Assembly: GCA_020630015.1 (NCBI GenBank)
Contig: JAHDCF010000025.1
Location: forward strand, 1-40,145
Length of the DNA: 40,145 bases
Direction: 5' to 3'
DNA from: Planktomarina sp.
Lineage (GTDB): Bacteria > Pseudomonadota > Alphaproteobacteria > Rhodobacterales > Rhodobacteraceae
Below the pieces are notes generated by a model. That model was not told where the DNA came from. It searched no databases and was given only the letters and a program-made list of their open reading frames with translations. Each line of letters begins with the position of its first letter. Positions within the stretch are counted from its first letter, which is position 1. Below, in pieces: positions 128 to 15,153 of this stretch. The position numbers and the translations under genes are program-made.

Positions 128-164
128 TTGCCGGAAATCATCCAATTCCTATACTTTGGGATAT
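128..164 (+). promoter_or_regulatory. Putative promoter and operator of the alg44-alg8 operon
   Basis: A -35-like TTGCCG (128–133) and a -10-like TATACT (150–155) are separated by 16 bases, giving a leader of about 75 bases before the GTG at 237. The -10 lies inside CTATACTTTGGGATAT (149–164), which matches 14 of 16 bases of a motif upstream of the FIST gene (12107–12122, minus strand). GGATA (159–163) also forms an inverted repeat with TATCC (170–174). The function as an operator is inference. The remainder of 54–236 shows nothing else. Confidence 0.45.
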
Positions 165-236: not shown

Positions 237-1649
237 GTGGATATTCGTCATGAGAGGGCGCTGCCTGACCTTGAATATCGGGTTCAAGCGCCGCTGGTGT
301 TAACACTGGCGAACACGAAAAAACAGATTGAGATCCGGGAATGGTCGCTTGCGGGCATCATTTATCCCGAGGATATCAACGTCTTGCCACAGCGAGGAGA
401 GCTGACGATTCCTTTTCAGGGAATTGATCTATCATTCCCTGTTACCTTCACCCAAGGCTCGTCGAAAAATGAACTCCTTTTCCAAGATCTGACAGGTCGT
501 CAACGCGAAACGCTGGCTGTGTTTTATCGTTCGATCTTATCTGGAAAAATGGCCAGTTCTGAAACCATGATCACAGCGTTGGATACGCCTGTCGATCTGA
601 TCCCAATGGGCGAAACCGAAGAAGAAACCAGTGCGGGGCAAAAAGAAAAAAGCCCAAGAATTTTACGGATCATTTGGAACGTAGCCTTTTATTTCATTTT
701 GGCCGCGCTGCTATTTATTCTCATCGGTGGGCAGATTTGGTCCAAGCTAACCACAGTACAGATCACCGGCGGGCGTGTAATGGCACCCGTGCTCGCTCTC
801 TCCGCCCCAGAAGCAGCGTATGTGGATCGAATTCTAGTGCAGGAAGGAGATGCCGTTTCCCAAGGTCAGGTTCTGATCCGTATGTCCGATCCGGATCGTG
901 AAAGTGACGTCGAAGATATTCGTAAAGATTTGCCCTATGCCAAATCACGTGTGCGCGAAGCGCGGGCACTGCTTGAAGCGCATCTGGCTCAAAAATCAGT
1001 ATATCGCGCCCCATTCGAACAAAATTTGGATCGTGCTTTGGCGCAACGTTCACTGCGTGACTTGCTGGGGTATTATAACATGGACGGCGTGTTATTGGCA
1101 TTGTCGAACTTGGAAAAGTTTGATCAAGGGCAAGCCCCAATCGATAGCGATTTTCACAAAATTACATCGAAACTTAAATCAGACCTTAATCAAGCCAAGG
1201 ATGCAGAAAGCAGGTTAAAACGCGATCTTTCAAACGCCAAAGATGCCGCGCGTGCATTGGATGTGATTGCCAAAGCGGATGGTTTTGTTGCTGAAATTCC
1301 GGTGCTTCAGAATGAATATGTGCATCGCGGCCAGCCCTTGATGACATTCGAGGAAAATACCGCACGTCAATTGCGAGGTTGGATTAGTGAACATCGGGCA
1401 AAAGCAATCTTTGTCGGAATGATCGCCAAAGTCGAAATCACCGATGTCACGGGCACGCGTTCCATAGATGCCCAAATCATTGATATCTTTGCCGGGGTGG
1501 ATCCAGCAACCGATAAGGGTTTTGGCGCAATTGTGACGTTGTCCCTGCCCGATCTTCAGGCGCAGGAAACGCGAGACATTTTGCGCCCAGACGCCCCAGT
1601 CACAATTCGTGCCTTAAAGCCTTGGGCGACACGTTGGGGGACATGGTAA
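237..1649 (+). CDS. alg44: Alg44-like PilZ/membrane-fusion protein for polysaccharide synthesis
   Basis: 470 aa with GTG start; GGAGA at 226–230 is correctly spaced, and no closer in-frame ATG fits. The order is an N-terminal PilZ-like domain (about residues 10–115), one transmembrane helix (about 145–167), and a periplasmic HlyD-type part with a lipoyl-like half (about 178–220), a long coiled-coil hairpin (about 220–345) and a closing β-region. This PilZ–TM–HlyD architecture is that of Alg44, the c-di-GMP-responsive co-polymerase of mannuronan synthase. The PilZ loop reads EWSLAG, close to (D/N)xSxxG, but the usual RxxxR is not recognisable (only R15 aligns), so c-di-GMP binding is uncertain. 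The stop overlaps the start of the adjacent Alg8-like gene (TAATG), so translational coupling is likely. Confidence 0.82.
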   Translation: MDIRHERALPDLEYRVQAPLVLTLANTKKQIEIREWSLAGIIYPEDINVLPQRGELTIPFQGIDLSFPVTFTQGSSKNELLFQDLTGRQRETLAVFYRSILSGKMASSETMITALDTPVDLIPMGETEEETSAGQKEKSPRILRIIWNVAFYFILAALLFILIGGQIWSKLTTVQITGGRVMAPVLALSAPEAAYVDRILVQEGDAVSQGQVLIRMSDPDRESDVEDIRKDLPYAKSRVREARALLEAHLAQKSVYRAPFEQNLDRALAQRSLRDLLGYYNMDGVLLALSNLEKFDQGQAPIDSDFHKITSKLKSDLNQAKDAESRLKRDLSNAKDAARALDVIAKADGFVAEIPVLQNEYVHRGQPLMTFEENTARQLRGWISEHRAKAIFVGMIAKVEITDVTGTRSIDAQIIDIFAGVDPATDKGFGAIVTLSLPDLQAQETRDILRPDAPVTIRALKPWATRWGTW

Positions 1650-3238
1650 TGTATGCTCCCTCCTCCGATTATGCCTTTGACAAAGACCTAACTGTTCGCC
1701 TTCGCGATCTGAAGGCACCTGCCAAGCGTGGTTTGGCAAAATGGTCAATTCGACAAATGTTTTTGATGTTCACCATTGCAATGATCTTATTGTGGTTGTT
1801 GGTATCTTTGTCGAACCGCTTTTTTGTGCCTGAAGTTCAGCACATCACATTCACCTTAGGCGCATTGGGCATGTGGCGTTTTGGATGGTGGTTTACACAC
1901 GCAGTGCGCGCTGAAATTTATCGCCGGTCGCGGTTTCCCAAGATGCGCGCAGCCGCGCAGCGTCTTTGGGATCAAGGTTGGCGCCCGCGCCGCCTTCATA
2001 TTCAGATGACCACCTATTACGAAGAACCTGCGATCACCAAACGCGTCATCGGGTCCATCCTCTCGCAGATCCGGCGCGAGCGCATTCCAACAACTTTGTA
2101 TATTGGAACTGGTTCTGCTTATGATGAACAAATCATTCGTGATTTTGTGGAAACCCACAGCCAAGATATCCCCGGTGATTTGGCGGATCTGGTTTTCATT
2201 CGTCAAAACCAGCCAGGCAAACGAATGGCCATTGGTCTGATCGTCCGCGCCATCAACAGAAACGGTGTCGAAAAGGATGATCTGGTCATCTTTATGGACG
2301 GCGACGCCCTTTATGGCGACGATGTATTGGAAAAAACTCTGTCGATGTTTGGTGCCGATCCTGAATTACAGGCTTTGACCACAGATGAAGAAGTCATCTG
2401 TTACGGACCAAAATGGATCGCAAATTGGCTGGACATGCGCTTTGCACAACGCCGTTTGGCCATGCAATCCCACGCGATTTCCGGCAAAGTATTGACCCTT
2501 ACTGGACGTATGAGCGTGTTTCGCGCGGAACATATGTTAAGCCTAAAATTCATCCGCACGATTGAAGCGGATCATTTGGATCATTGGCTGTGGGGTCGCT
2601 TTCGGTTTTTGTCTGGTGACGATAAATCAACTTGGTATCACATGCTGACCCAAGGTGCGAAAATGACCTACGTGCCTGACGCGACCGTTTACACGATCGA
2701 AGTCATCAAAGAAAATGGCATGCAGCGCATGGTTCAAAACTTTCGCCGGTGGTCTGGTAATATGCTTCGCAACGGCAGCCGCGCAATCGCACTTGGGCCT
2801 CGCCGCGTGAACCCCTTTATTTGGTGGTGTTTGGTGGACCAAAGATTGGCAATGTGGACCATGATGGTCAGTCCTGCTTTGGCAGTTCTGGGCACGATCG
2901 TGGCACCGGATTACATTTGGTCATGCCTCATCTGGATCATCTTTTCTCGGGTTGTTTTGTGCATCTTTTTGTTTACGCACAGTCGTCGTGTGGATCTGAG
3001 CTGGCCGTTTATTTTGTATCTGAACCAGATCATTAACGCGTCTGTTAAAATTTTTATGATTTTCCATTTGTCCAAGCAGAAATGGTCAAACCGCGGAAAT
3101 CAATCTAGCCAATCTGGCGAAGGTTGGCTGGCAAGTGCCCAAAACGGTATGGCCAAGTTCCAACTTATCACCACGGTTGTGGGCTTCATCTATTTGCTGT
3201 CCTGTTTGGTCGGCCTTGTTCCATTTCCTACATTTTAA
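1649..3238 (+). CDS. alg8: Alg8-like family 2 glycosyltransferase (mannuronan synthase type)
   Basis: 529 aa from the ATG overlapping the previous stop; GGGGGA at 1636–1641 sits 7 bases upstream. ATG 1643 and TTG 1622 are possible longer starts. There are two N-terminal membrane helices, a cytoplasmic GT2 domain and several C-terminal helices. Visible GT2 motifs are FMDGDALYGDD (metal/nucleotide binding), SGDDKSTWY (the catalytic-base 'TED' position, close to the Alg8 form) and FRRWSGNMLRN (the QxxRW position). With Alg44 and a GDP-mannose dehydrogenase nearby, the expected reaction is polymerisation of GDP-mannuronate at the inner membrane. The actual sugar is inferred. The gene ends before an intrinsic terminator. 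Confidence 0.82.
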   Translation: MYAPSSDYAFDKDLTVRLRDLKAPAKRGLAKWSIRQMFLMFTIAMILLWLLVSLSNRFFVPEVQHITFTLGALGMWRFGWWFTHAVRAEIYRRSRFPKMRAAAQRLWDQGWRPRRLHIQMTTYYEEPAITKRVIGSILSQIRRERIPTTLYIGTGSAYDEQIIRDFVETHSQDIPGDLADLVFIRQNQPGKRMAIGLIVRAINRNGVEKDDLVIFMDGDALYGDDVLEKTLSMFGADPELQALTTDEEVICYGPKWIANWLDMRFAQRRLAMQSHAISGKVLTLTGRMSVFRAEHMLSLKFIRTIEADHLDHWLWGRFRFLSGDDKSTWYHMLTQGAKMTYVPDATVYTIEVIKENGMQRMVQNFRRWSGNMLRNGSRAIALGPRRVNPFIWWCLVDQRLAMWTMMVSPALAVLGTIVAPDYIWSCLIWIIFSRVVLCIFLFTHSRRVDLSWPFILYLNQIINASVKIFMIFHLSKQKWSNRGNQSSQSGEGWLASAQNGMAKFQLITTVVGFIYLLSCLVGLVPFPTF

Positions 3239-3382: not shown

Positions 3383-3454
3383 CACGTTCCATTTTATCAA
3401 ATTCTCAGCGCCATATCCAAAGGGATAGGTGACCTGCCCAATTTTACACAAATC

Positions 3455-3536: not shown

Positions 3537-4931
3537 ATGTTGAACGCTGCAATCAATTCTAATGCTGCGACACCGCTTGCGCCGCTGCACATCGTTGGTG
3601 AAAAACCATCAATCTCGATTGTCGGCTTGGGCTATGTGGGTGCTGTGTCAACCGCATGTTTGTCGAGCTTGGGTCACCGCATCGTTGGTGTTGATTTGGA
3701 TGAAACCAAAATCGCCCAAATTGGGGAAGGCAAAGCCCCCATTCACGAAGCCAACTTGGAAAAACTTCTGTCCGAAGGGGTTGATGCACAGCTTATCACA
3801 ACCACAAACGACCTTGTAGATGCGGTTGCCGATACTGACGTCACCTTTGTTTCTGTTGGCACACCGACATCTGAAGATGGTGGATGTGATTACCGTTTCA
3901 TCGAAAGCGCCGCCCGATCCATTGGTGAAGGAATTGCGCTGAAATCTGATTTCCACGTTGTTGTCATGCGCTGTTCGATCCCTCCCGGAACAACAATGAG
4001 GGTAATGACACCGATTATCGAAGAATATTCAGGCAAAAAACTGGGTGATGGCTTCGGCGTTTGCTTCAATCCTGAATTCCTGCGCGAAGGCGTGGCAGTA
4101 GCCGATTTTTATGCCCCCCCCAAAACTGTCATTGGCGCCACATGTGAAAAATCAGCGGACATTTTGAAATCTGTCTATTCACCGGTGGATGACACGCCGA
4201 TCATCACATCCATCGAGACAGCCGAGATGGTTAAATATGTCGATAATGTTTGGCATGCCGCCAAAGTTTGTTTCGCAAACGAAGTTGGCCGTCTTTGCAA
4301 ACCATTAAACGTCGACAGCCATGATGTGATGGATGTGTTTGTTCAAGACACAAAACTGAACCTATCCCCCTATTATCTGAAGCCAGGTTTTGCATACGGT
4401 GGGTCCTGTCTGCCGAAAGAAGTTCGTGCGGTAACGCACATTGCAAAGGGCCTGGGTGTGTCTTTGCCAATGATCGAAAACTTAGACGTTTCAAACAAAG
4501 CTCATATCGATGCGGCCACGCAAATGGCAGAAGCAACACAGGCCAAAACGGTTGCTGTACTGGGTTTGGCATTCAAACCCGGCACCGATGATTTGCGCGA
4601 AAGCCCGATTTTGGAGGTGATTGCAGATTTGCATGCCAAAGGTATCAAAGTTCAAATCCACGACCCAGCCATCACAACACAGACGCCCCTGGCGGGACAG
4701 TTGGCTTATGTTCAACACGGAAGTTCCGGCCTGCGCGATGTCGCCCCGGCCTTGCCAGAAATGATCTGCGAAAACATCGAAGGCGCTGTTCAAAACGCTG
4801 ACGCCATTTTGGTGACCCAGAAGAACAAAGCTTACGCTACGGCCGCCAAGGAAAGCACGCTGCCGGTAATTGATCTGGTGCGATTGTTTGACGGTGAAAC
4901 ACCCGAAAACTGCACAGGTATCGGCTGGTAA
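3537..4931 (+). CDS. algD: GDP-mannose 6-dehydrogenase (AlgD type)
   Basis: 464 aa of the UDP-glucose/GDP-mannose dehydrogenase family, oxidising GDP-mannose to GDP-mannuronate with two NAD+. The Rossmann motif GLGYVGA is at 30–36 and NPEFLREG near 178–185. EMVKYVDNVWHAAKV follows near 230–244, and the catalytic cysteine is C291 in FAYGGSCLPKE. The wording around NVWHAAK and QDTKLNLSPYYLKPGF resembles Pseudomonas AlgD more than UDP-glucose dehydrogenases. The protein carries about 24 extra N-terminal residues. AAAGGA (3522–3527) sits 9 bases before the ATG. An out-of-frame ATG at 3530 opens a 10-codon frame but is too close to that ribosome site. It is probably cotranscribed with the following RTX gene. 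Confidence 0.9.
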   Translation: MLNAAINSNAATPLAPLHIVGEKPSISIVGLGYVGAVSTACLSSLGHRIVGVDLDETKIAQIGEGKAPIHEANLEKLLSEGVDAQLITTTNDLVDAVADTDVTFVSVGTPTSEDGGCDYRFIESAARSIGEGIALKSDFHVVVMRCSIPPGTTMRVMTPIIEEYSGKKLGDGFGVCFNPEFLREGVAVADFYAPPKTVIGATCEKSADILKSVYSPVDDTPIITSIETAEMVKYVDNVWHAAKVCFANEVGRLCKPLNVDSHDVMDVFVQDTKLNLSPYYLKPGFAYGGSCLPKEVRAVTHIAKGLGVSLPMIENLDVSNKAHIDAATQMAEATQAKTVAVLGLAFKPGTDDLRESPILEVIADLHAKGIKVQIHDPAITTQTPLAGQLAYVQHGSSGLRDVAPALPEMICENIEGAVQNADAILVTQKNKAYATAAKESTLPVIDLVRLFDGETPENCTGIGW

Positions 4932-4973
4932 CCCCGGCCAAATTCTCTCCCCTCTTCTTTAAGGACTATGACG

Positions 4974-7448
4974 ATGACTGACCAAATCTTTGGAACAAAT
5001 CTGAACGACATTCTAAGTGTCCTTCAGCCAGGTTCCGTCGTGAACGGCCTTGCCGGTGACGATGAAATCACCGGCGGCTCTGGAAACGACACAATCTTCG
5101 GAGACTTTCAAAACGAAAACCTGTTAACCCAGGTCGAAGATGCCAACAGCTTTGCCGATTATGCCAATACCGGAGACTGGCAAGTGGCAAATGGCGACGA
5201 TGGGCACAGCAAAATGACCCAAGTGGTCACAACCGAAGATGGCGTGTCTTACTCTGTCTCATTCGAAAGTGCCGCAAACCTTGGCGCCGGTTATACAGGC
5301 GGTGCGATCGAAGTTGTTTGGAATGGTGACGTTGTCGGAACATTCACCTCTGAAACAGGCGTGTTTGAAACCCATTCAATCGAAGTTGTTGGCACTGGTG
5401 GTGAAGATGTGTTGACCTTCCGATCTGTGGATTACACGCCGGAAAACGGGCCCACAATTATGACCGATGGTCCGATCAATTATTATGAAACGACCGTTGA
5501 AATTGCTGGCCAAGAGGTAACAGTAAACGCAGTCGCACCGGGCCAACCTGGATTATATCAAGTTTTGAATGGTACGCTTCATACCTTTGATGTTGAAACC
5601 CAAACATATATCCAAGCAGGATCTGACGCGACTGTAACGATCAATGGCATCGGCTTTAACCAAGAAGACGATCTGTTTTACGGAATCGCAGTCAGCAATG
5701 GCACCGACAGCCTCGGCAATCCGGTCGAACGCACCGACATCATGATGATCGATGCACATGGCAACAGCTATCGTATTGGCGAAGGGCCTTACGCATCATG
5801 GACCGGGGATTTCGACGACCAAGGAAATCTTTGGTCATTCCATTCGAGCATGGATCGCATTACTGTTATCGATGTTGATCAATTTGATGCCGATGGAAAT
5901 CCTGTGGTTGAGGTCTTCAAATTCCCCAACAACATGATCACAGAGCGCGTTTGGGACGTGGCCTATAATGCCGAAACACAACAGTTCATGGGCCTTGTTG
6001 GACCATCTGCAGAAGGTGAACCAGGTCAATTGATGATCATCGACATTTCAAACGTAGAAAATGGTGGTGAACCTGAATTTTCCTTCATCGAGATCACAGG
6101 AACGATGATCGACGGCACTGCGGAAGATGGCCTTCCACGCATGACATTTGGGTCTGCTGTTATCGATGGTGATGGCAACTTATACGTAGGTGGTAACGGC
6201 GGCGACCACGATATGAATGATGCAACAGGCATATCTGGTGGTATCTATCGTGTCGTCACCGACCAAGACACGGGTACCGGTCACTTGGAATTGGTGACAG
6301 AAGCGCCAAGGGCCTATTCCAACGATGGTGCCAGTGATCCACGCGCACTTGATCTCTTTGCTGTTACGGATCTCAACACAAGTGTTTTGATACGAACTCC
6401 TGAACTTACCGAAGTAGAACTCGAAGATGGCAGTTACAATGATACCATCAGTTCAGGATCAGACAGCGATGTGGTTTTTGGCGGTTACGGCGATGACGTG
6501 GTAACGGGCGAAGGACGCGGCGATAACTTGTCTGGGAACGAAGGCGACGACCAAATCTACGGTGGGAACGCACCGGGCGTCTTCTCAAGCATCGTTTCGT
6601 ATTATGACGATGCTGGCTTGCGATATGACCAATTCGGGAACCTGCTGCCGGATGACGATGACCAATTGTTCGGTGGAACCGGGCAGGATCTTCTCAGAGG
6701 GTCAGCCGGTCACGATACCCTTTATGGAGGGGACGGTGATGACCAATTGTCAGGCGGATCGGGTCTTGATGTTCTTTATGGGGATCTTGGTTCTGATCAA
6801 ATGTCCGGCGGTGGACAAGATGACTTCATTTTCGGCGGTCAAGGCGACGACTTTTTGAGCGGAGGCTCTGGTTCAGACATCTTGAACGGGGAAACAGGCC
6901 AAGACACTTTGGAAGGCGGAAGTGGTAACGATTATCTAAATGGTGGTCTTGCAAACGACGACATCAACGGTGGTTCGGGCAATGACACAATCGAAGATGA
7001 CGGAGGCAGCGATCGAATTCGCGCCGGATCAGGCAACGATTCAATCAGCGCTGGTGATGGAAACGATTACATCAATGCGGGCAATGGCGACGACGTGATC
7101 GACGGCGGGGCCGGACGTGACCGGATCTATCTTGGGGCTGGCGAAGATGTCGCCAGTGGCGGAGAAGGATCAGATCGCTTCATCTTCCGTTCAGAAGATT
7201 TGGATGGAAGCAGCGACAGGATCGACGACTTCACCAACACCGGCAATGAACAGGATAGTCTAGATTTTAGCCAACTGGCACTTCTTGAAGATGGTCAAAC
7301 GCAGGAAGATTGGATGTCGCAAAATGTTTCGCAAGGCGCAGACAATTCGGTTGTTATCACACTCGACTCCGGCACGCTGACGCTGGTTGATCACAACAAC
7401 ATGGGTGATCAATTCCTTCAGTCAGTCTCTGACGCGATGATTTTCTAA
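4974..7448 (+). CDS. Large RTX calcium-binding secreted protein with propeller-like middle domain
   Basis: 824 aa from ATG 4974. AAGGA at 4961–4965 is 8 bases upstream, whereas ATG 4968 would be only 2 bases away. A short block of GGxGxD repeats sits at the N terminus (about 25–45). It is followed by a β-rich, possibly carbohydrate-binding region (about 50–190) and a propeller-like region with recurrent GN(L/S)Y/W blades (about 195–470). A long RTX array follows (about 495–740), then an acidic, hydrophobic-ending tail typical of type I secretion. There is no N-terminal signal peptide and no protease HExxH or epimerase motif that I can see. The position behind algD suggests a matrix or polymer-binding protein. 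No type I exporter is encoded nearby. Confidence 0.8.
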   Translation: MTDQIFGTNLNDILSVLQPGSVVNGLAGDDEITGGSGNDTIFGDFQNENLLTQVEDANSFADYANTGDWQVANGDDGHSKMTQVVTTEDGVSYSVSFESAANLGAGYTGGAIEVVWNGDVVGTFTSETGVFETHSIEVVGTGGEDVLTFRSVDYTPENGPTIMTDGPINYYETTVEIAGQEVTVNAVAPGQPGLYQVLNGTLHTFDVETQTYIQAGSDATVTINGIGFNQEDDLFYGIAVSNGTDSLGNPVERTDIMMIDAHGNSYRIGEGPYASWTGDFDDQGNLWSFHSSMDRITVIDVDQFDADGNPVVEVFKFPNNMITERVWDVAYNAETQQFMGLVGPSAEGEPGQLMIIDISNVENGGEPEFSFIEITGTMIDGTAEDGLPRMTFGSAVIDGDGNLYVGGNGGDHDMNDATGISGGIYRVVTDQDTGTGHLELVTEAPRAYSNDGASDPRALDLFAVTDLNTSVLIRTPELTEVELEDGSYNDTISSGSDSDVVFGGYGDDVVTGEGRGDNLSGNEGDDQIYGGNAPGVFSSIVSYYDDAGLRYDQFGNLLPDDDDQLFGGTGQDLLRGSAGHDTLYGGDGDDQLSGGSGLDVLYGDLGSDQMSGGGQDDFIFGGQGDDFLSGGSGSDILNGETGQDTLEGGSGNDYLNGGLANDDINGGSGNDTIEDDGGSDRIRAGSGNDSISAGDGNDYINAGNGDDVIDGGAGRDRIYLGAGEDVASGGEGSDRFIFRSEDLDGSSDRIDDFTNTGNEQDSLDFSQLALLEDGQTQEDWMSQNVSQGADNSVVITLDSGTLTLVDHNNMGDQFLQSVSDAMIF

Positions 7449-7456
7449 GAATGCAG

Positions 7457-7482
7457 GAGGCTGGTCAAAAAAGACCAGCCTC
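7457..7482. terminator. Bidirectional terminator between the RTX gene and the response regulator
   Basis: A ten-base-pair stem GAGGCTGGTC (7457–7466) / GACCAGCCTC (7473–7482) surrounds an A6 loop, with TTTC after it on the plus strand. It serves the converging genes. The hairpin includes the last codons and the stop codon of the minus-strand response regulator. Confidence 0.75.
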
Positions 7483-8082
7483 TTTCGCTATCATGGCTGC
7501 ATGTGTGCGATTTTTCGCTTCCAATTTGCGGCACAGCGTTTTCACGTGCAGTTTGATTGTAACTTCCTGCAGATCAAGATCCCGAGCAATTTCTTTGTTC
7601 GAAAGCCCCTGACAAAGCCCACCCAACACCTCTAATTCCCGAGGCGACAAACCTTTGGCAAGTTCGTTGGTTTCTTCTTCCTCTTCAGCGGTCATAAATT
7701 TAACCGGCACAAATGTTTCACCCGCAGCCATAAACCGAATGGCGTTCACCATGGATGCGGCTGCCATGGTTTTGGGCAAAAACCCAATCGCACCCGCATC
7801 AAGCGCCTGTTGGGCAATGGCTTTTGGGGCGATGCCCGACATTAAAGCAACGGGGAATGGATCACTTGCTTCTTTCGCTGCCGCCAATCCCTCCAACCCA
7901 TTCATGCCGGGCATTGAATAATCCAACAGGACCAATTGATACCGCTTGTTGGTTCGAATGGCTTCTAGTGCACTCTCAAGATCAGCGACAACATCGACCT
8001 CAAAATCGGTTTCTCGATCCAGAAACGCGGCTAACGTTTCGCGAACCAAATCATGGTCATCGGCAATCAAAATTCTGATCAT
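7465..8082 (-). CDS. NarL/FixJ-family (LuxR-type) response regulator
   Basis: 205 aa. The receiver domain (1–120) has acidic residues D9/D10, phospho-acceptor D54 in VLLDYSMPG and K104 in FLPK. A LuxR-type helix-turn-helix (about 142–202) begins LSPRELEVL and continues SNKEIARDL. The start overlaps the stop of the upstream hybrid kinase by four bases (ATGA), so it is the likely cognate output of that kinase. It would bind DNA as a dimer at inverted repeats; the imperfect palindrome upstream of the FIST gene and alg44 is a candidate site (inference). Its last codons form half of a bidirectional terminator. Confidence 0.9.
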   Translation of the reverse strand: MIRILIADDHDLVRETLAAFLDRETDFEVDVVADLESALEAIRTNKRYQLVLLDYSMPGMNGLEGLAAAKEASDPFPVALMSGIAPKAIAQQALDAGAIGFLPKTMAAASMVNAIRFMAAGETFVPVKFMTAEEEEETNELAKGLSPRELEVLGGLCQGLSNKEIARDLDLQEVTIKLHVKTLCRKLEAKNRTHAAMIAKEAGLF

Positions 8083-10856
8083 GAAAACAATCCCTGCGCA
8101 ACTTCCTGCGCAAGTTGCCCCAAGTTGACGGGTTTCGCAAACAATCCTTGAATGGAGGGCTTGTTCAGGCGCGGATCGGCCAATCTTCGTGCCAAAGCTG
8201 TCACAACAAAGATAGGAATTTGCATTCCCTGCCCCCGCAATTGTTCGATAACATCGCCCCCAGTCAAGCCAGGCATATCATAATCCGTAATCAAACAGTC
8301 CCAATCATCCGGATCATCCATCAACACTTCGATGGCCAGACTGGGATCATCCACGACGCTCACCTCAGCACCACAAGATTCAAGAAACGATACGATCACC
8401 CCTGCGACGGCCTGCTCATCATCCAAAACCAAAATTGTTTTACCGGTTAAATCCACCAATGCGGCGTCATCGCCATCTGCGAAATCGTTGTCTTCGATCC
8501 GGGGGAATGCAACGTGAAAGGCGGTTCCCTGCCCTTCTTGGGTATCAACGATGATAAACCCATCAAGCCGCTGCACAATCGCAGAAACCATGGCCAATCC
8601 AACACCAGTTCCGCGATTGCCTTTGGTGCTGAAGTAAGGTTCGAAGATTTTGTTCAAAACGTCCGCGGGAATGCCACCAGCAGTGTCTTCAACCACAACT
8701 TCAAAATATGATTGACCGGGTCGATTTTCACCGATGATCGGCTGTGTGTTTGAAGAAGGCTCAAAGGTTCGAAGGGCAACTTCGATCGTTCCTTTTGCCC
8801 CCTCGAAAGCATCGTTTGCATTTAGGATCAGATTCAAAATCACCAATGAAATATCCGCGTTCACACCTCGAATGTTCATTGGAAAGTCTGGTTTGTCGAA
8901 ACTTAGAGTGACATTTGATCCAAGGTTTGATGCGGCCAGCCCTTCCACCTCTGACAATATTGATCTGAGATCAAAAATCCCTGCGTCACCCGCATCAGCC
9001 CCAAGATCAAGCAACCTGTTCACCAATCTTGCTGCGGTGTTTCCCGCTTTCAGGATTCGGTTTGCATGTTGCCTTTGATCTTCCGTTGCGTCTGGTTCTG
9101 ATACGATCAAAGTGGCTGAACCCGAAATCGCTGACAGCACGTTATTAAAGTCATGTGCCACACCCGCAGCCAATTCAGAAATTGCTTCGCGACGGCGGGT
9201 ACTTTCGATCTGTGCATTCAAGGCCGCCATCCGCTGTCTGTTGCCCACGGCGGTTGTCACATCCCGAATAACCACAATGCTGCCGACTTTTTCTAAATCG
9301 GTTTGGGAAACCTCATGATATTGGCCTGCATCGCCCAAAGCCCTTTCAAAAATCCTGCCACGATCAGACATGCCAACTTCGGCTTTCAAGCGATCTTCGT
9401 TTTCTGGGGTTCTATAGAATCGCTGCCATTTTCGGCCTGTCAGTAAGAGTTCACTTTCAAATCCCAAAAGCTGGGCCATTTTCGAATTTGAATAAACAAC
9501 ACGCCCATCAAAATCGGTGATTCCGATACCATCACTCGCATTTTCCACGGCGGCGGCCCTTTGTTTCAGCAACCGTTCAGTATTTCGAAGGGCCGTGGTA
9601 TCTGTGGCAGAGATAACCGTGGCACCTTCCGAAGTTATCTGTGCGCGGAAAAGAACCTGCCGGCCGTCGGGCAAACCTGATCGAACCCCTTCCTTATATT
9701 CGGAAAGCTGATGAAAATCGGGTCTTCTCATCTGTTCCGAAATATTTTGAAACGACTTCGGCAGCCCCTCGATATAGGCCGACCAATTTTCATCAAACGA
9801 TGTTCCTACTCCCCATTTCGAAACAGGCGACGGGAACATGGTTCGGGTACTATCGTTACAAAACCCAATCGTTTTATCGGGCATTAGCATCAAAAAAGCA
9901 TCACGGGTGTGTTCCAACACCTCTTGCAGTCGCGCCTCTGCAATGCGTGTCTGTTCAATAGATTCCACTCGCTCGGTTGCATCGGTTTGCGTCGCCACCA
10001 GTTGTGCCAAGTTTCCATCGTGATCATAGACTGGAAACAAGGCCAGATCGTTCCAGAATTCTTCGCCATTTTTTCGTTTATTACGGATTAAAAATGTCCC
10101 GGCGGTTCGATCTTTAACTGCCGCGCGCAAACGCGATCTTTCCGGAGATTGAGGTGCCTCTGCCGACAAAAAACGGCAATTTTTGCCCAATACTTCCGAT
10201 GCAGAATACCCCGATAACGTTTCGAATGCTTGGTTCACATAAATGAGCGGCAAATCAGGTTGTGTTGCGTCGGCGATTGCAAAACCTGACGATGATCCGT
10301 CAATGACTGCTGCCAACCGATCATTTTGAATGCTCAATTCCAAATTGTTGGAAACCTGACCAAACAATCCAACCAATCGCTTCAAAAATCGAAGGTTTTT
10401 GTTTGAGAACTTTCCCGGCTGTGGATCAAAACACAAAAGCACGGTTTGTGCGTCCGAATTATCATTGGCCACAGCGAACAACAAACTGCGCTGGTCGGCA
10501 TAACGCTTTCGAAAATCTTCATCCAAGCCTTCAATTTTCGAAAGATCGATCACATTGCGCGATTTGCGAAAATAATCTGCGTTTTGAATATGAAACGACA
10601 GCTCATCTTCAAATGCTGTGCTGAAGGAAACAGAAAGCGTGCCGTCCGACAATTTCCCCAACGCAACCCGTTGTGCATCAAGGCTTTCCGCCGCCTTTTT
10701 AAGCGCATTTAGCAAGGCCCCCTTGGGATCGCCTGACTGTGTTGCGACCTCCAATATTTCAAGAAGGGCTTTGGTTTCCGCCAAAGCCTCTCTCTCTCGA
10801 TCACGAACGATTTCAAGTTCAATTAATGTTTCGCGAAGTCTTTCGTTTTGGGACAT
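8079..10856 (-). CDS. Hybrid sensor histidine kinase with LOV-type and PAS sensor domains
   Basis: 925 aa with no transmembrane segment, so cytoplasmic. A short coiled coil (1–40) and a GAF-like region (about 40–175) come first. A LOV-type PAS domain (about 180–298) and two further PAS-like regions (about 305–420 and 430–540) follow. The kinase part has a HisKA domain with H568 in AAGVAHDFNN, an ATPase domain with GTGVGLAM near 749, and a C-terminal receiver (about 806–925, D858). The LOV domain has GKNCRFL with C227, plus R244, N259, N269 and Q290 at the expected flavin-contacting positions; the last Q of the usual NCRFLQ is S. It starts 14 bases after the FIST gene, with GGAA upstream, and overlaps the regulator gene. 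A cytoplasmic multi-input phosphorelay is the likely role. Blue-light sensing is inferred from motifs. Confidence 0.88.
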   Translation of the reverse strand: MSQNERLRETLIELEIVRDREREALAETKALLEILEVATQSGDPKGALLNALKKAAESLDAQRVALGKLSDGTLSVSFSTAFEDELSFHIQNADYFRKSRNVIDLSKIEGLDEDFRKRYADQRSLLFAVANDNSDAQTVLLCFDPQPGKFSNKNLRFLKRLVGLFGQVSNNLELSIQNDRLAAVIDGSSSGFAIADATQPDLPLIYVNQAFETLSGYSASEVLGKNCRFLSAEAPQSPERSRLRAAVKDRTAGTFLIRNKRKNGEEFWNDLALFPVYDHDGNLAQLVATQTDATERVESIEQTRIAEARLQEVLEHTRDAFLMLMPDKTIGFCNDSTRTMFPSPVSKWGVGTSFDENWSAYIEGLPKSFQNISEQMRRPDFHQLSEYKEGVRSGLPDGRQVLFRAQITSEGATVISATDTTALRNTERLLKQRAAAVENASDGIGITDFDGRVVYSNSKMAQLLGFESELLLTGRKWQRFYRTPENEDRLKAEVGMSDRGRIFERALGDAGQYHEVSQTDLEKVGSIVVIRDVTTAVGNRQRMAALNAQIESTRRREAISELAAGVAHDFNNVLSAISGSATLIVSEPDATEDQRQHANRILKAGNTAARLVNRLLDLGADAGDAGIFDLRSILSEVEGLAASNLGSNVTLSFDKPDFPMNIRGVNADISLVILNLILNANDAFEGAKGTIEVALRTFEPSSNTQPIIGENRPGQSYFEVVVEDTAGGIPADVLNKIFEPYFSTKGNRGTGVGLAMVSAIVQRLDGFIIVDTQEGQGTAFHVAFPRIEDNDFADGDDAALVDLTGKTILVLDDEQAVAGVIVSFLESCGAEVSVVDDPSLAIEVLMDDPDDWDCLITDYDMPGLTGGDVIEQLRGQGMQIPIFVVTALARRLADPRLNKPSIQGLFAKPVNLGQLAQEVAQGLFS

Positions 10857-10870
10857 TCATTTTCCAAAGT

Positions 10871-12040
10871 TCAGTCACCTTTCGAAAAGATTACACAAGA
10901 AATCATTAAATTCCCATGCCTGTTCCCACCTGCGCGCATTGGGCCTTGTTCACCAAAAGTGAAAGCCCCCAAAAAGGGAGCGTTTTTCAACGCATCACTC
11001 ACACCGCCACTGATTTCATCAATGCGATCGGCCACGGACAACATGCATCCCCCACAATATATCATAAAGGCACCGGCAATATCTTCATCTTGAATCGCGG
11101 CATTTTGCTTGGCCATCTGCGCCACACGTCCCCCGCGCTCAACCAATGCATCGCGCGTCCCTGTCATCTGAACTATTTCTTCGCCTTCTGATAGTTCGGC
11201 AAAAAGATCGATGTTTCCATTTTCGTGCACGACACTTGGGTGCGCCAACAAATAAAATGGGATACCTCTGACCGTCGAAACTTGCCGCCCCAAGGGCCAC
11301 ATGGTTGCGTCCGATAAAATGCTCTTTTCACCGTCATCGTTTGGCTTAATAATTTCCCCACCATTCCACTTTGCATAAACATCTGCGGCAGGTTCACCAT
11401 CAATCTTGATCAAGCACCGACCATCGGTTTTTGTTACAATCCCTGAATGTTGGGTCGGCTCATACCCATTTTGATATGCAATCTCCACGGGGGTGGAACT
11501 GAACATCACCGTGACAACAAGCCCGGCATCAATCGCCTCCCCACCATCACTCACACGCCAACCACCGGCAACGGCTTCGTCTGCGGCACTTCCACCGATC
11601 ACGGGCACCGAGGGACCAACGGCATCTTCGATGCCCATCAAGACCTCTTCTTCTGCTCCAGGTGTGGCGGACAGAATGATCAAATCAGGTGCTTCGCCAA
11701 CACGTTGCGCGCGTTCTATTGCAGTTGTGACGGTATCAAATGTTGCTTTCCTTGGATTATCTCCAAATGGCATGGCATAGCTGCCATAATCACCCTCTGG
11801 ATCGGAAAAAACCATGCCAACAACGTCGGATGCGCCGGTATTCGACATGGCACCACGGCACGATGTTGCCACATGCAAATTACGTGTGGATTGCGAAAGG
11901 GACTTAATATCTGACGCGGAAACGACGCCTTCTTTGTGATGGACCATCACAACATCGCACAAACGGGTTTCACCATTCATTTCATCCAAAAGGGATTTCA
12001 AAGGGCCCCAATCCTGCCCTGATATTGTTTGAATACGCAT
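10871..12040 (-). CDS. FIST-domain sensory protein (NosP-like)
   Basis: 389 aa, soluble. The start is taken at ATG 12040 because GAGAGG lies just upstream; GTG 12046 would place it inside the ribosome site. The FIST N domain (about 25–215) contains ATSCRGAMS and PVIGGSAADE, and the FIST_C domain (about 220–370) ends in APFLGAFTFGEQGP. The length and the neighbouring hybrid kinase match NosP, a haem-binding nitric-oxide sensor encoded beside the kinase NahK in Pseudomonas, where it affects biofilm. Other FIST proteins are proposed to sense amino acids or other small ligands, so haem/NO binding is an inference. It is the first gene of the FIST–kinase–regulator operon. Confidence 0.82.
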   Translation of the reverse strand: MRIQTISGQDWGPLKSLLDEMNGETRLCDVVMVHHKEGVVSASDIKSLSQSTRNLHVATSCRGAMSNTGASDVVGMVFSDPEGDYGSYAMPFGDNPRKATFDTVTTAIERAQRVGEAPDLIILSATPGAEEEVLMGIEDAVGPSVPVIGGSAADEAVAGGWRVSDGGEAIDAGLVVTVMFSSTPVEIAYQNGYEPTQHSGIVTKTDGRCLIKIDGEPAADVYAKWNGGEIIKPNDDGEKSILSDATMWPLGRQVSTVRGIPFYLLAHPSVVHENGNIDLFAELSEGEEIVQMTGTRDALVERGGRVAQMAKQNAAIQDEDIAGAFMIYCGGCMLSVADRIDEISGGVSDALKNAPFLGAFTFGEQGPMRAGGNRHGNLMISCVIFSKGD

Positions 12041-12106
12041 GTTCACCTCTCACAGGTGGGCATACACGGTTCATTCGCAGACCGTTTGGGTCATGCGTAT
12101 AGAGAC

Positions 12107-12122
12107 CTATCCTAAAGTATAG
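12107..12122 (-). promoter_or_regulatory. Imperfect palindrome / -10 region upstream of the FIST operon
   Basis: On the minus strand this reads CTATACTTTAGGATAG, two CTAT(A/C)C half-sites facing each other across four bases, with an embedded TATACT. It lies 67 bases before the FIST start, much as the near-identical motif lies about 73 bases before alg44. It may be the operator of the LuxR-type regulator in this operon (inference). No convincing -35 is seen. Confidence 0.4.
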
Positions 12123-12124
12123 TC

Positions 12125-12541
12125 TTAGTCTTCGCCATAAGCGGAAGAGATCATGTGGCTGGACAACGTTGTATAGGTTTCAAGCCATGCATTCTTTTCG
12201 GCCTCAGTGAAATCGCTGCCCAAAAGCTCTGACAAAGTCATGATGAGGGCTTCACCGACCGGCGCATATTGATCCGCTGACACACCATATGAAACGTGAC
12301 GTGTTGCCAAGTCCGAAGCAGCTGACAGCAACCCATCGGGGTCATCCAAACTGTCAACGATAAAAGACAACGTATCAACCAACTTACGGCCTTGTTCATC
12401 AATATCATTTTTGAACAAAGGTTCGAGATCGGGCCGCAATTGAAACAATTTGCGATAAAACATCATCGCCACCATTTCACGGCTGGCCATTGCTTTGGCC
12501 CAGGACATCCGGATCAAATCTGCAGAATTTTCTTGGGTCAT
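12125..12541 (-). CDS. Single-domain globin (flavohaemoglobin-like haem domain)
   Basis: 138 aa, one globin fold without the FAD/NAD reductase module of flavohaemoglobin. Haem-pocket residues match the Hmp pattern: Y29 in MFYRKLF (B10 position), Q50 in DEQGRKL (E7) and proximal H82 in RHVSYGV (F8). This set is typical of globins that bind O2 and detoxify or sense NO. The ATG at 12541 is chosen because upstream in-frame codons run into the tRNA-Phe gene. AAAGG is upstream at a loose spacing. It lies 84 bases before the FIST gene in the same direction, which suggests a shared NO/O2 theme. No partner reductase is encoded nearby. Confidence 0.85.
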   Translation of the reverse strand: MTQENSADLIRMSWAKAMASREMVAMMFYRKLFQLRPDLEPLFKNDIDEQGRKLVDTLSFIVDSLDDPDGLLSAASDLATRHVSYGVSADQYAPVGEALIMTLSELLGSDFTEAEKNAWLETYTTLSSHMISSAYGED

Positions 12542-12580
12542 ATCTCGTTGCCTTTCGACGTCACTTTCACCTTTGGAAAG

Positions 12581-12656
12581 TGGTGCCCGGGGGCGGATTT
12601 GAACCACCGACACGAGGATTTTCAGTCCACTGCTCTACCCCTGAGCTACCCGGGCA
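12581..12656 (-). tRNA. tRNA-Phe (GAA)
   Basis: A complete 76-base cloverleaf on the minus strand. The acceptor TGCCCGG pairs with CCGGGCA, the D arm contains AGCTCAGGGGTAGAGC, and the anticodon loop is CTGAAAA (GAA). The TΨC loop is TTCAAAT, and a 3' CCA is encoded. Confidence 0.96.
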
Positions 12657-13366: not shown

Positions 13367-13954
13367 ATGCAAAAACTGACCAGACGACACGTTCTCGTGA
13401 CATTGTCAGGGGCCAGTGTCGCGCTGTGCCCAGCGATTTTGAATGCTCATGATGGCGAAGAATTTAGCTGGGGGGATGGGGTAAACACCAGCATCCCACC
13501 GGTGCCTGACCGCATATTGGCATTAGAAACACCGACGTCACCTGTCGATGTCACAGACCTAAAACCGGGCGATGTTGCCGTGGTGTCACGTCCAACAGTT
13601 CTGCCAGAATATGGGCGCATGAACCAAATTCAATATGTTGCCGTTTTAAGACGTACGGATGCACAGATCCAAGCGGCAAAAGGCAATGACCAATCCGATA
13701 CAATATTTGATCCTCGATACTTGGTGGTGAACCTTGTGTGCCCGCATCGCGGGTTCGCTGTTGGTGTCACGGGGCGGGCTGACCGGCCGTTCGCATGCAC
13801 AAAAGAAGGTGACCGGCACCACAGTATTTTTGATGCGTCCGGTTTTGGCGTTCACGGAAAATCAAAAGGGGAATACATGAGCGTTCCCGACTATGATTTG
13901 ATGATCGAAGCGTCGGGAGACGCCGTAACAAAAGCCGTGTTAACTTTGGCATAA
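13367..13954 (+). CDS. Exported Rieske-like [2Fe-2S] protein with atypical cluster motif
   Basis: 195 aa. An N-terminal TRRHVLVTLSG stretch and hydrophobic segment to about residue 27 look like a Tat-type signal. The first cluster pair is C125-P-H127, and C144 follows after 16 residues as in Rieske proteins. Its histidine partner is then at H151 or H152 (C-x6/7-H), not the usual C-x2-H, so the second loop has about four extra residues. HHSIFD still resembles the canonical HGSxFD. It is probably the periplasmic electron-transfer partner of the cytochrome b561 directly upstream (AAAGG ribosome site). If the cluster is not formed, it would be a Rieske fold without iron. Confidence 0.72.
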   Translation: MQKLTRRHVLVTLSGASVALCPAILNAHDGEEFSWGDGVNTSIPPVPDRILALETPTSPVDVTDLKPGDVAVVSRPTVLPEYGRMNQIQYVAVLRRTDAQIQAAKGNDQSDTIFDPRYLVVNLVCPHRGFAVGVTGRADRPFACTKEGDRHHSIFDASGFGVHGKSKGEYMSVPDYDLMIEASGDAVTKAVLTLA

Positions 13955-14134: not shown

Positions 14135-15153
14135 CAAAACACCTCAGCCGTGGGCACCCGTTCCCGTTTCCGCTTGAGCTCGGCGTGACCAAGGGGTGTC
14201 CATCCCACAAACTCTGTTGCGACGGGGCATTTACGGCACGCCGCTTTAAGGGCGGTTTCCACAGGTTTGCGATCACGCTTTGTCAGTGGGGCAAAATCAA
14301 CGGTAATTTGACCGGCCAGACCACGCAGGCGCAATTGCCGCGGAAGATCAGCCGCCGCCGCAAGATTTGCCTTTAACGCCGCGGCCGGTGATGCATCTGA
14401 CCCCGTATTGACATCAACAGCCACCAAAGCGCGGGTTGCTTCGATAAACATTGATCCCGATGAAAGATGTGCCAGATCACCCGTGGATTGCTCCAAGGCG
14501 TCCAAGGCGCCAGACGCCTCTAAATCTGCTGGATCGGTCAGGACATCTGTAACATCAGCCCATTCTCGCCATGCCAAGGTATGTGGGCTGTCACCTTCCA
14601 ACAAAACGACAGGATCTTTTCCGTCCTCAGATGAAATGGCATCAGCAAGCGACCGCATTGCGGCTATATCTTCGGCAACGTCATCTGCAGATTGCCCGGC
14701 GGCACTACTGCGGATGATCAACCCCATATCAGATCCATCCATCCCATCGCGCGCCAACAGATCCAGCTGATCGCGCGTGGCATCATCCCGAATTTGCCGG
14801 GAAATGTTCAGACCCGGCGAATCTGGCGTCACAATTGCATATCTGCTTTTAAACAAAATACGTTGGGTTACCGGAATTGCTTTGCCCCTTTCGGCCAACC
14901 CCGACACCTGCACAGTGATGGTTTGGCCTTGTGACAGGTTCGACGCTTTGCGCAAAAATCCAGTTCCCCCCGGAATTTTCAGCATCGCACCGCCAATCCC
15001 CTTTATCGGGCGATCCACAACCGCGCGCAGGATGCTGCCCACAGGCAGAATGTCTGCACTTTCGACAAAGACATCATCAATCTTGCCATCCACCATAAGA
15101 ACGGCAACTTGCGCGTCGCCCAGATGGCCCAAAATGGCTTGGCGCCCTTTCAT
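14134..15153 (-). CDS. rng: Short ribonuclease E/G family protein
   Basis: 339 aa from ATG 15153, preceded by GGGGGG. It has an S1-like region (about 35–100), then the RNase H/DNase I-like catalytic part. The metal-binding aspartates are D247 (VAVDVNTG) and D286 (ITVDF), at the places of D303 and D346 of E. coli RNase E. It is shorter than typical RNase G (roughly 480 residues) and lacks the CPxCxGxG zinc link; only CRKC near 306–309 is seen. It overlaps maf by four bases (ATGA) and yacG by one. Endoribonuclease activity on rRNA or mRNA is likely but not certain for this compact form. Confidence 0.85.

Follow-up and report, generated by a model that had tools for sequence, protein, structure and literature searches.

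Gene content and conservation of the locus

The window, a 40,145-nucleotide stretch of Planktomarina sp. DNA (contig JAHDCF010000025.1), contains four adjacent minus-strand genes whose products all score above the curated Pfam cut-offs. Read along that strand, they encode a single-domain globin (12125..12541), a FIST/FIST_C protein (10871..12040), a hybrid histidine kinase (HK, 8079..10856) and a response regulator (RR, 7465..8082), which joins Response_reg and GerE domains and is thus of the NarL/LuxR type, a receiver followed by a helix-turn-helix. Open reading frames, Pfam and a LOV motif in the kinase confirmed the gene set described in an earlier note on this DNA, namely FIST, LOV/PAS hybrid kinase and LuxR-type regulator with a globin upstream, and reproduced its figures of a 14-base FIST–HK gap and a 4-base HK–RR overlap. 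The FIST reading frame extends to 12046, and the ATG at 12040 is preceded by a Shine–Dalgarno-like stretch. The globin frame spans 12125..12613 with an ATG at 12541, and a tRNA-Phe gene (12581..12655) precedes it.

A neighbourhood survey had been set beforehand as a test, and it demonstrated that the module is not confined to this genome. Among the 18 modules compared, mostly from Rhodobacteraceae-type bacteria, gene order is tight, and the LOV-bearing kinase beside FIST and a LuxR-type regulator is conserved across several genera; the loci are mutually related, and counts from them are not independent. The globin is a conserved and frequent neighbour, lying upstream of the module in 14 of the 17 loci with upstream DNA. 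Its residues Tyr29, Phe43, Gln50 and His82, which we take to be B10, CD1, E7 and F8, are invariant in 14/14 aligned sequences, the window included, and this combination of a proximal His and a conserved distal pocket predicts haem binding. The best solved-structure matches are the single-domain bacterial globins 3wfw (113 bits) and 3s1i (89 bits), presumably of the Hell's Gate kind. The haem-pocket residues are kept, yet the comparison gave no tie to nitric oxide (NO) or to the phosphorelay.

The adjoining exopolysaccharide (EPS) cluster is real. On the plus strand lie genes for an Alg44-like membrane-fusion subunit of the HlyD type (237..1649), a family-2 glycosyltransferase (1622..3238) termed Alg8-like from its neighbours, an AlgD-like nucleotide-sugar dehydrogenase (3537..4931), whose nearest solved structure is a GDP-mannose 6-dehydrogenase (367 bits), and an RTX calcium-binding-repeat protein (4968..7448), the last gene of the unit and convergent with RR. 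The N-terminal domain of the RTX protein gave weak fold matches, many of them beta-propellers, with TM scores to the query of at most 0.32 among the 50 matches listed. As the contig begins at base 1, AlgE-, AlgF- and AlgX-type genes are known only from the one relative scanned, L181, where Pfam matches to Alginate_exp, AlgF and ALGX lie upstream of Alg44–Alg8. The gene set of L181 and the AlgD-like enzyme resemble alginate clusters (AlgE, AlgF, AlgX, Alg44, Alg8, ManC and AlgD), whereas the terminal RTX gene differs, as does the lack of a Pfam PilZ match in the Alg44-like proteins of the window and five relatives. Two GGDEF matches above the cut-off are present in the genome. In most cases the module adjoins EPS genes, and these belong most often to an alginate-type cluster. 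Of the polysaccharide genes sought, none was detected at 3/17 module loci (L034, L045 and L075); the contig of L075 ends, and L182 from the same genome carries the polysaccharide cluster.

The FIST protein and the LOV hybrid kinase

The FIST protein scores 73.5 bits for FIST and 73.6 bits for FIST_C (gathering cut-offs 23.2 and 28.5). In the NosP–NahK and NosP–NosK systems, as outlined in the accessible portions of PMC8846402 and PMC12570481, a FIST protein is likewise encoded beside a histidine kinase and a response regulator, and the earlier note had read the present locus as such a NO system, with haem on FIST and an acquired LOV domain. This adjacency, together with the O2/NO-type pocket of the globin that is often upstream, is in keeping with that reading. 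However, the FIST protein reached 36.3 bits against the NosP model (NF041558), which has a cut-off of 450, and the His found at alignment column 361 in 12/12 NosP proteins is replaced by Gly in 17/17 members here. On these two grounds NosP membership was rejected; the protein is assigned by its sequence to a subfamily distinct from NosP, and its annotation as a NO-sensing NosP is unwarranted. The parallel drawn with NahK fell as well, with HK scoring 72.8 bits against a cut-off of 400 for the NahK/ErcS model (NF041832) and the match confined to the ATPase and receiver part. In addition, the RR output here is of the DNA-binding kind, in contrast to the c-di-GMP-type outputs mentioned in the accessible portions of the same two papers. 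We regard a NosP/NahK-type NO system as very improbable.

The structure model of the FIST protein has a mean pLDDT of 94, and its best fold matches are FBXO22 entries, with cyclic amide hydrolases also matched; no ligand was indicated by this fold search. Within the subfamily, C61, C329-GG-C332 and H375 (389-aa numbering) are invariant, and the cysteines (63, 331 and 334 in alignment numbering) are kept in 17/17 modules and in 7/7 more distant relatives. FIST could tentatively be seen as a thiol-, redox- or metal-dependent sensor, with Cys61, Cys329-Gly-Gly-Cys332 and His375 lining a putative site that would gate the light signal. The invariance of the cysteines supports this, as does the retention of cysteines, at shifted positions, in NosP, yet invariant cysteines can be structural, and His375 is not special to this subfamily, since its equivalent is also invariant in NosP and second FIST families.

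The domain order of HK is an N-terminus, LOV, a PAS region, HisKA, HATPase_c and a Response_reg receiver, with no Pfam family matched in residues 1–180. The LOV domain (residues 182–300, 9957..10313, minus strand) contains the GxNCRFL motif as GKNCRFL with the photoactive Cys227 (codon 10176..10178, minus strand), and the solved structures matching it include many known LOV photoreceptors. R228, R244, N259, N269 and Q290, which we take to be the flavin contacts, are each kept in 16 or 17 of the 18 modules. The LOV-like domain noted earlier is thus borne out as a LOV domain with a canonical pocket. It might instead sense redox state or oxygen through its flavin, light being incidental: the genome yielded no photosynthetic reaction centre, and LovK photochemistry is conditioned by the redox state of the cell, according to the visible text of PMC4844311. 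Against this stands the photoactive Cys, kept in 17/18 modules (L078 retains the module genes and has lost it), and we consider a redox or oxygen role unlikely.

A palindromic operator at the FIST and EPS promoters

Upstream of FIST lies the 16-bp palindrome CTATACTTTAGGATAG (12107..12122, minus strand), of the form CTATMC-N4-GKATAG, with a CTATAC box, probably −10-like (12097..12102, minus strand), beginning at the fifth base past it. The operator was first spotted by eye in the output of a de novo search upstream of the first module gene, in which counts of 5-bp inverted repeats and of 9-mers were not above shuffles and a 9-mer of the operator ranked among the top 9-mers, though shuffled sequences attained its count as well; the operator was afterwards tested by fresh searches. 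Elsewhere in the window it occurs solely before the Alg44-like gene (149..164, plus strand, centre 80 nt upstream) and the AlgD-like gene (3413..3428, plus strand, centre 116 nt upstream), each time with one mismatch. The FIST-derived pattern gave 3 matches in the window against 0.17 expected, a number reached by 0/100 shuffles. Nine sites occur in the genome, three of them inside this 12-kb locus; given the FIST site, the presence of two of the remaining eight at this locus has a P of about 5e-4.

Across modules with upstream DNA, the operator precedes FIST in 17/17 at ≤1 mismatch (17 at ≤2). At LOV-module loci it precedes alg44 in 5/7 (5 at ≤2), manC in 8/12 (11 at ≤2) and algD in 5/13 (8 at ≤2). 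Gene starts inside units gave 0/18 for HK (1 at ≤2), 0/18 for RR (0), 0/13 for RTX (0) and 0/8 for alg8 (1), and control ORF starts gave 1/623 (9 at ≤2). The EPS link noted earlier thereby goes beyond mere adjacency to a shared operator. The suggested operon held for FIST–HK–RR, the operator-bearing unit. Membership of the globin is weakened, as a conserved promoter/operator separates it from FIST and just 1/14 globin genes (2/14 with up to 2 mismatches) carries a separate operator.

By whole-genome count, genomes with the module do not stand out for the palindrome, so its placement alone is informative. No genome-wide enrichment was seen (9 sites in the window's genome versus 19 for the reversed control), and exact sites stand in the same ratio to controls in ten LOV-module genomes (21 versus 8) and eight module-free genomes (5 versus 2). 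Most distant operator sites had no recognizable target gene.

Might the palindrome be read by a sigma factor, or by some transcription factor other than RR, with RR merely sharing the regulon neighbourhood? The CTATNC box at a fixed distance, by which the conserved pattern may be part promoter, and the exact sites in module-free genomes speak for this, but near these genes the operator tracks one RR clade whatever the sensor, and we hold it quite improbable. At operator-bearing loci the RR recognition helix is KLHVKT-like (KLHV/M-x-T), with a deviating KLYVTT at L045; at ten operator-free loci it is KMDVKS or KAHVTA-like. A paralogous RR (57%) in genome G213 also has an exact operator upstream. 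Seven alginate clusters with an RR 55–73% identical, without FIST and with distant kinases or none, have at least one operator in 7/7, before EPS genes in just 3, and five clusters without a detected RR have it in 0/5. In these 12 clusters without the LOV module, operators at ≤1 mismatch precede alg44 in 2/11, manC in 0/4 and algD in 2/10. A 2-mismatch site lies before alg44 at L234, where no RR was found.

A model for the system and its relation to known ones

Taken together, FIST, LOV hybrid kinase and RR probably make up a single autoregulated two-component system in control of an alginate-type EPS operon. What is seen at the level of sequence is the canonical LOV pocket, the conserved module, the putative operator at its own and EPS promoters, and the operator alongside RR-type regulators. 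Blue light would form a flavin–Cys227 adduct in the kinase; FIST, with a ligand of its own, may supply a second input by binding the kinase in the way that NosP binds its partner kinase; and phosphoryl flow from the kinase would set the phosphorylation of RR, whose dimer is the proposed binder of CTATMC-N4-GKATAG before FIST and the EPS units alg44, manC and algD. In one relative, an algE-like gene would also be among the operator-fronted units. Transfer from kinase to RR is not self-evident, because no HPt was found in the hybrid kinase. The sign of RR control, activation or repression, could be read from promoter geometry: the −10-like CTATNC box starts 5 or 6 nt past the operator at FIST, whereas at half the EPS sites this spacing is 26 nt, and we give an even chance to the EPS genes being activated and the own operon repressed.

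LOV kinases are described, in the visible portion of PMC4844311, as acting on EPS or attachment in Rhizobium leguminosarum (LOV-HK) and Caulobacter (LovK–LovR). These alphaproteobacterial LOV kinases affect exopolysaccharide, biofilm or attachment, and differ from the present HisKA hybrid kinase with its FIST partner, adjoining LuxR-type RR and EPS operator. BphP–AlgB of Pseudomonas aeruginosa, as sketched in the accessible part of PMC6932827, similarly has a photoreceptor kinase feeding a regulator of collective (biofilm) behaviour that serves as a node for several inputs, but with a phytochrome and a different regulator; the likeness drawn here is at the level of description. NosP–NahK and NosP–NosK, by the same partial texts cited above, differ in FIST subfamily, in the LOV domain of the kinase and in the DNA-binding output. 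Among the open-licence papers listed, judged by title and visible abstract text, no description of a FIST/LOV-kinase/RR module was found. As far as the visible parts of these sources go, light effects on bacterial exopolysaccharide have so far rested on photoreceptor mutants; here the sequence of marine Rhodobacteraceae-type bacteria leads to a full proposed chain, in which LOV kinase and FIST act on a regulator and the regulator on a defined operator before named EPS genes. The operator renders the regulon testable through a single binding experiment.

A broader reading, which we put at somewhat below even, is a regulator–operator–alginate core with exchangeable front ends. In some genomes the front end would be the light-sensing kinase, with a non-NosP FIST protein as its gate; in others a molybdopterin-fold-like protein would take this place together with a hybrid kinase of a second kind. 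Both would feed the same RR clade, palindrome and slime genes. The FIST/LOV version would then be a coincidence detector, restricting polysaccharide production to times when light coincides with a signal of redox or cell state. On the best RR tree the two sensor types, A and B, require four label changes, which suggests repeated sensor exchange, and no more than suggests it, as the well-supported branches force only one. Clusters with the same regulator and operator but the other sensor pair provide a natural experiment in sensor exchange. An HPt match is present in two of the second-kind hybrid kinases.

Domains and gene layout of the sensory module

In the window, the genes for a globin (12125-12541), a FIST protein (10871-12040, counted from its ATG), a hybrid kinase (8079-10856) and a LuxR-type response regulator (RR; 7465-8082) lie on the minus strand, as does tRNA-Phe (12581-12655). 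The domains of all four proteins score over curated cut-offs, confirming the identities given in the earlier note, and the coordinates agree with the 14-base gap and 4-base overlap it had described among the FIST, kinase and RR genes. The exopolysaccharide (EPS) cluster reported beside them is also present, as a plus-strand unit of Alg44-like, Alg8-like, AlgD-like and RTX-repeat protein genes convergent on RR. The nearest solved structure to the AlgD-like enzyme is GDP-mannose 6-dehydrogenase (367 bits, versus 266 for the best UDP-glucose dehydrogenase); the Alg8-like protein had no match among solved structures at E 0.01. At 13367-13954, after a cytochrome b561-like gene, lies the gene for a putative Rieske-like protein with weak NCBIfam matches.

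Judged by sequence, the kinase contains a LOV domain, as had been proposed. Its residues 182-300 matched 102 solved sequences with E values no higher than 1e-15 (best E 7.7e-30), known LOV photoreceptors being numerous among the best 60, and Cys227 is present in 17/18 aligned kinases. The protein also has HisKA, ATPase and C-terminal receiver domains; a domain search gave no match for HPt, and for the N-terminal 180 residues there was no Pfam match with an E value of 1 or less. The one kinase that has lost the Cys, in the related locus L078 (13286-16093), retains the module and operators and is possibly a natural light-blind version.

The FIST protein had been called NosP-like, a reading we rejected: it scores 36.3 against the 450-bit cut-off of the NosP model. 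In an alignment with 12 NosP proteins from other genomes, all over that cut-off, the His common to 12/12 of them is Gly in 17/17 module FIST proteins, and C61, C329 and C332 are invariant. No solved chain matched by sequence at E 1; the predicted structure (pLDDT 94) has its best fold matches in FBXO22 entries, at a TM of about 0.5. A second, NosP-closer FIST family occurs in Rhodobacteraceae (L053-L059). A LuxR-type RR is nearby in 7/7 of its loci; similarity also identified a kinase at 5/7, with the LOV motif present in 0/5. At another locus (L052, 10485-12374), a relative of the window's FIST subfamily adjoins a GGDEF-EAL protein. Among solved structures, the globin is matched best by single-domain bacterial globins; it keeps Tyr29, Phe43, Gln50 and His82 in 14/14 sequences and may detoxify NO or bind O2.

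Conservation and association with polysaccharide genes

Module loci came from a FIST-protein scan of genome contigs (15 loci) and from further genome searches. With three contigs fetched twice set aside, 18 modules were counted: the window's own, L032-L040, L045, L048, L049, L050, L073, L075, L076 and L078. All 18 have FIST, kinase and RR side by side in that order (L045 has only the FIST end), so the adjacency extends beyond this genome, the point on which the earlier note had called for a neighbourhood survey. A globin lies upstream on the same strand in 14/17 modules with upstream DNA and was not found there in L032, L038 and L073; in L050 and L078 it is 1.6-1.8 kb off, with polysaccharide genes intervening. 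An RTX gene is directly convergent on RR in 13/18. The kinase was matched at E 1e-100 or better in 13/295 family genomes, two of which (G134 and G242) carry a kinase without the G-x-N-C-R-F motif (L051, L079). Neither FIST nor kinase was found in G045, the only same-genus genome searched.

Eleven polysaccharide query proteins were searched against the module and comparison loci. A match was present in 14/17 fetched module loci, or 11/14 without L040, L050 and L078, from which some queries derived, versus 1/40 evenly spaced 20-kb control stretches. None was found at the eight loci of more remote relatives, four of them <12 kb (seven contain FIST; L079 has just the kinase and RR), or at the seven loci of the second FIST family.

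A palindromic operator before FIST and EPS genes

A sequence resembling CTATAC-TTTA-GGATAG was first noticed before FIST in a printout of upstream regions, and each module with upstream DNA has a version of it before FIST. Within the window, the 16-base pattern with at most two mismatches occurs before FIST (12107-12122), Alg44 (149-164) and AlgD (3413-3428), three places versus 0.17 expected; 0/100 shuffles reach three. As CTATMC-N4-GKATAG, the proposed RR binding site, it has two sites with at most one mismatch in the 40 control stretches (800 kb).

We then counted operators from 300 nt upstream to 60 nt inside each gene start, set by similarity, excluding genes with an uncovered start. At most one mismatch (at most two in brackets) was found for 17/17 FIST genes (17), a count that is not independent because the pattern was taken from FIST promoters. 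The EPS counts are independent: Alg44 5/7 (5), ManC 8/12 (11), AlgD 5/13 (8) and Alg8 0/8 (1). The others were globin 1/14 (2), kinase 0/18 (1), RR 0/18 (0), RTX 0/13 (0) and control ORF starts 1/623 (9). Operator-to-gene distances are narrow, e.g. 80-98 nt for ManC. Locus L181 has an additional site before an AlgE-like gene. In L034, a one-mismatch site at 14578, past RR, precedes an ORF and then a receiver-SpoIIE phosphatase gene, possibly a further target.

The window's own genome (2.88 Mb) holds nine sites with at most one mismatch, versus 19 for a reversed control pattern. Exact sites versus reversed control number 21 and 8 in ten LOV-module genomes, 5 and 2 in eight genomes without the module, and 1 and 0 in G134 plus G242. 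The palindrome is thus not enriched as such, and its placement is the evidence. Three of the nine lie at this locus versus 0.04 expected (P about 6e-6, although the sites themselves defined the locus bounds); conditional on the FIST site, P is about 5e-4 for two more.

Of 17 FIST promoters, 11 have a CTATNC box (at most one mismatch) beginning at +5 and 4 have one beginning at +6; the largest single-position count over 500 shuffles was 4. Of 20 EPS sites, 10 have the box at +26 and 4 at +5, against a shuffle maximum of 5. Taken as a -10 element, CTATNC would place the operator over the FIST promoter but upstream of many EPS promoters, and the system may repress itself and activate the EPS genes.

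The operator and regulator beside other sensors

An Alg8 search at E 1e-60 matched 39/295 genomes, 20 of them at ≥61% identity. The LOV module is present in eight of these 20; from the remaining 12 the clusters were fetched and scanned. In seven of them there is an RR sharing 55-73% identity with that of the window, FIST is absent and kinases are distant or lacking; each of the seven stretches contains at least one operator (at most one mismatch). Five have it ahead of RR or of a divergent neighbour of RR (L232, L233, L235, L236 and L237; in L232 it precedes a sensor pair ahead of RR), and three have it ahead of EPS genes (L231, L236 and L238). The five stretches without RR have 0/5 at this threshold; one of them, L234, ends at the contig end and has one site with two mismatches. 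The operator accompanies the RR (7/7 versus 0/5, Fisher P 0.0013, relatedness ignored). Across all 12 clusters it precedes alg44 in 2/11, manC in 0/4 and algD in 2/10. The RR recognition helix is KLHVKT in 17/18 modules (KLYVTT in L045) and in L079 and L186, KLHMKT in L051, and KLH-V/M-x-T in the six compared (all but L235) of the seven RR-bearing clusters without FIST. At loci without the operator it is KMDVKS (L041-L043) or KAHVTA-like (L053-L059).

According to a review (PMC4844311), LOV kinases of Rhizobium and Caulobacter affect EPS or attachment, an effect shared with that proposed here; another paper (PMC3366940) describes EPS affected by a LOV protein in Xanthomonas. Pseudomonas BphP-AlgB (PMC6932827) is alike in that a photoreceptor kinase feeds a regulator. 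The combination with FIST, an operator and an exchangeable front end was not found in the literature searched on these topics.

Among the alginate clusters with a close RR relative (L231-L237), a second pair occurs, a molybdopterin-fold-like protein and another hybrid kinase. The former adjoins RR in L231, L232, L233, L235 and L237, and its PF00174 match passes the cut-off in three of these (L231, L232, L237) but falls short in the other two. The adjacent genes encode histidine kinases; a scan of four of them, from L231, L232, L235 and L236, gave an HPt match in L231 and L232. Hydrophobic N-termini, judged by eye, suggest that the pair's sensor proteins are periplasmic and membrane-bound. In L186 (G213, contig C62), a paralogous RR, 57% identical, has an exact operator in front (site 6123) and the second sensor pair divergent from it, so G213 contains both front ends.
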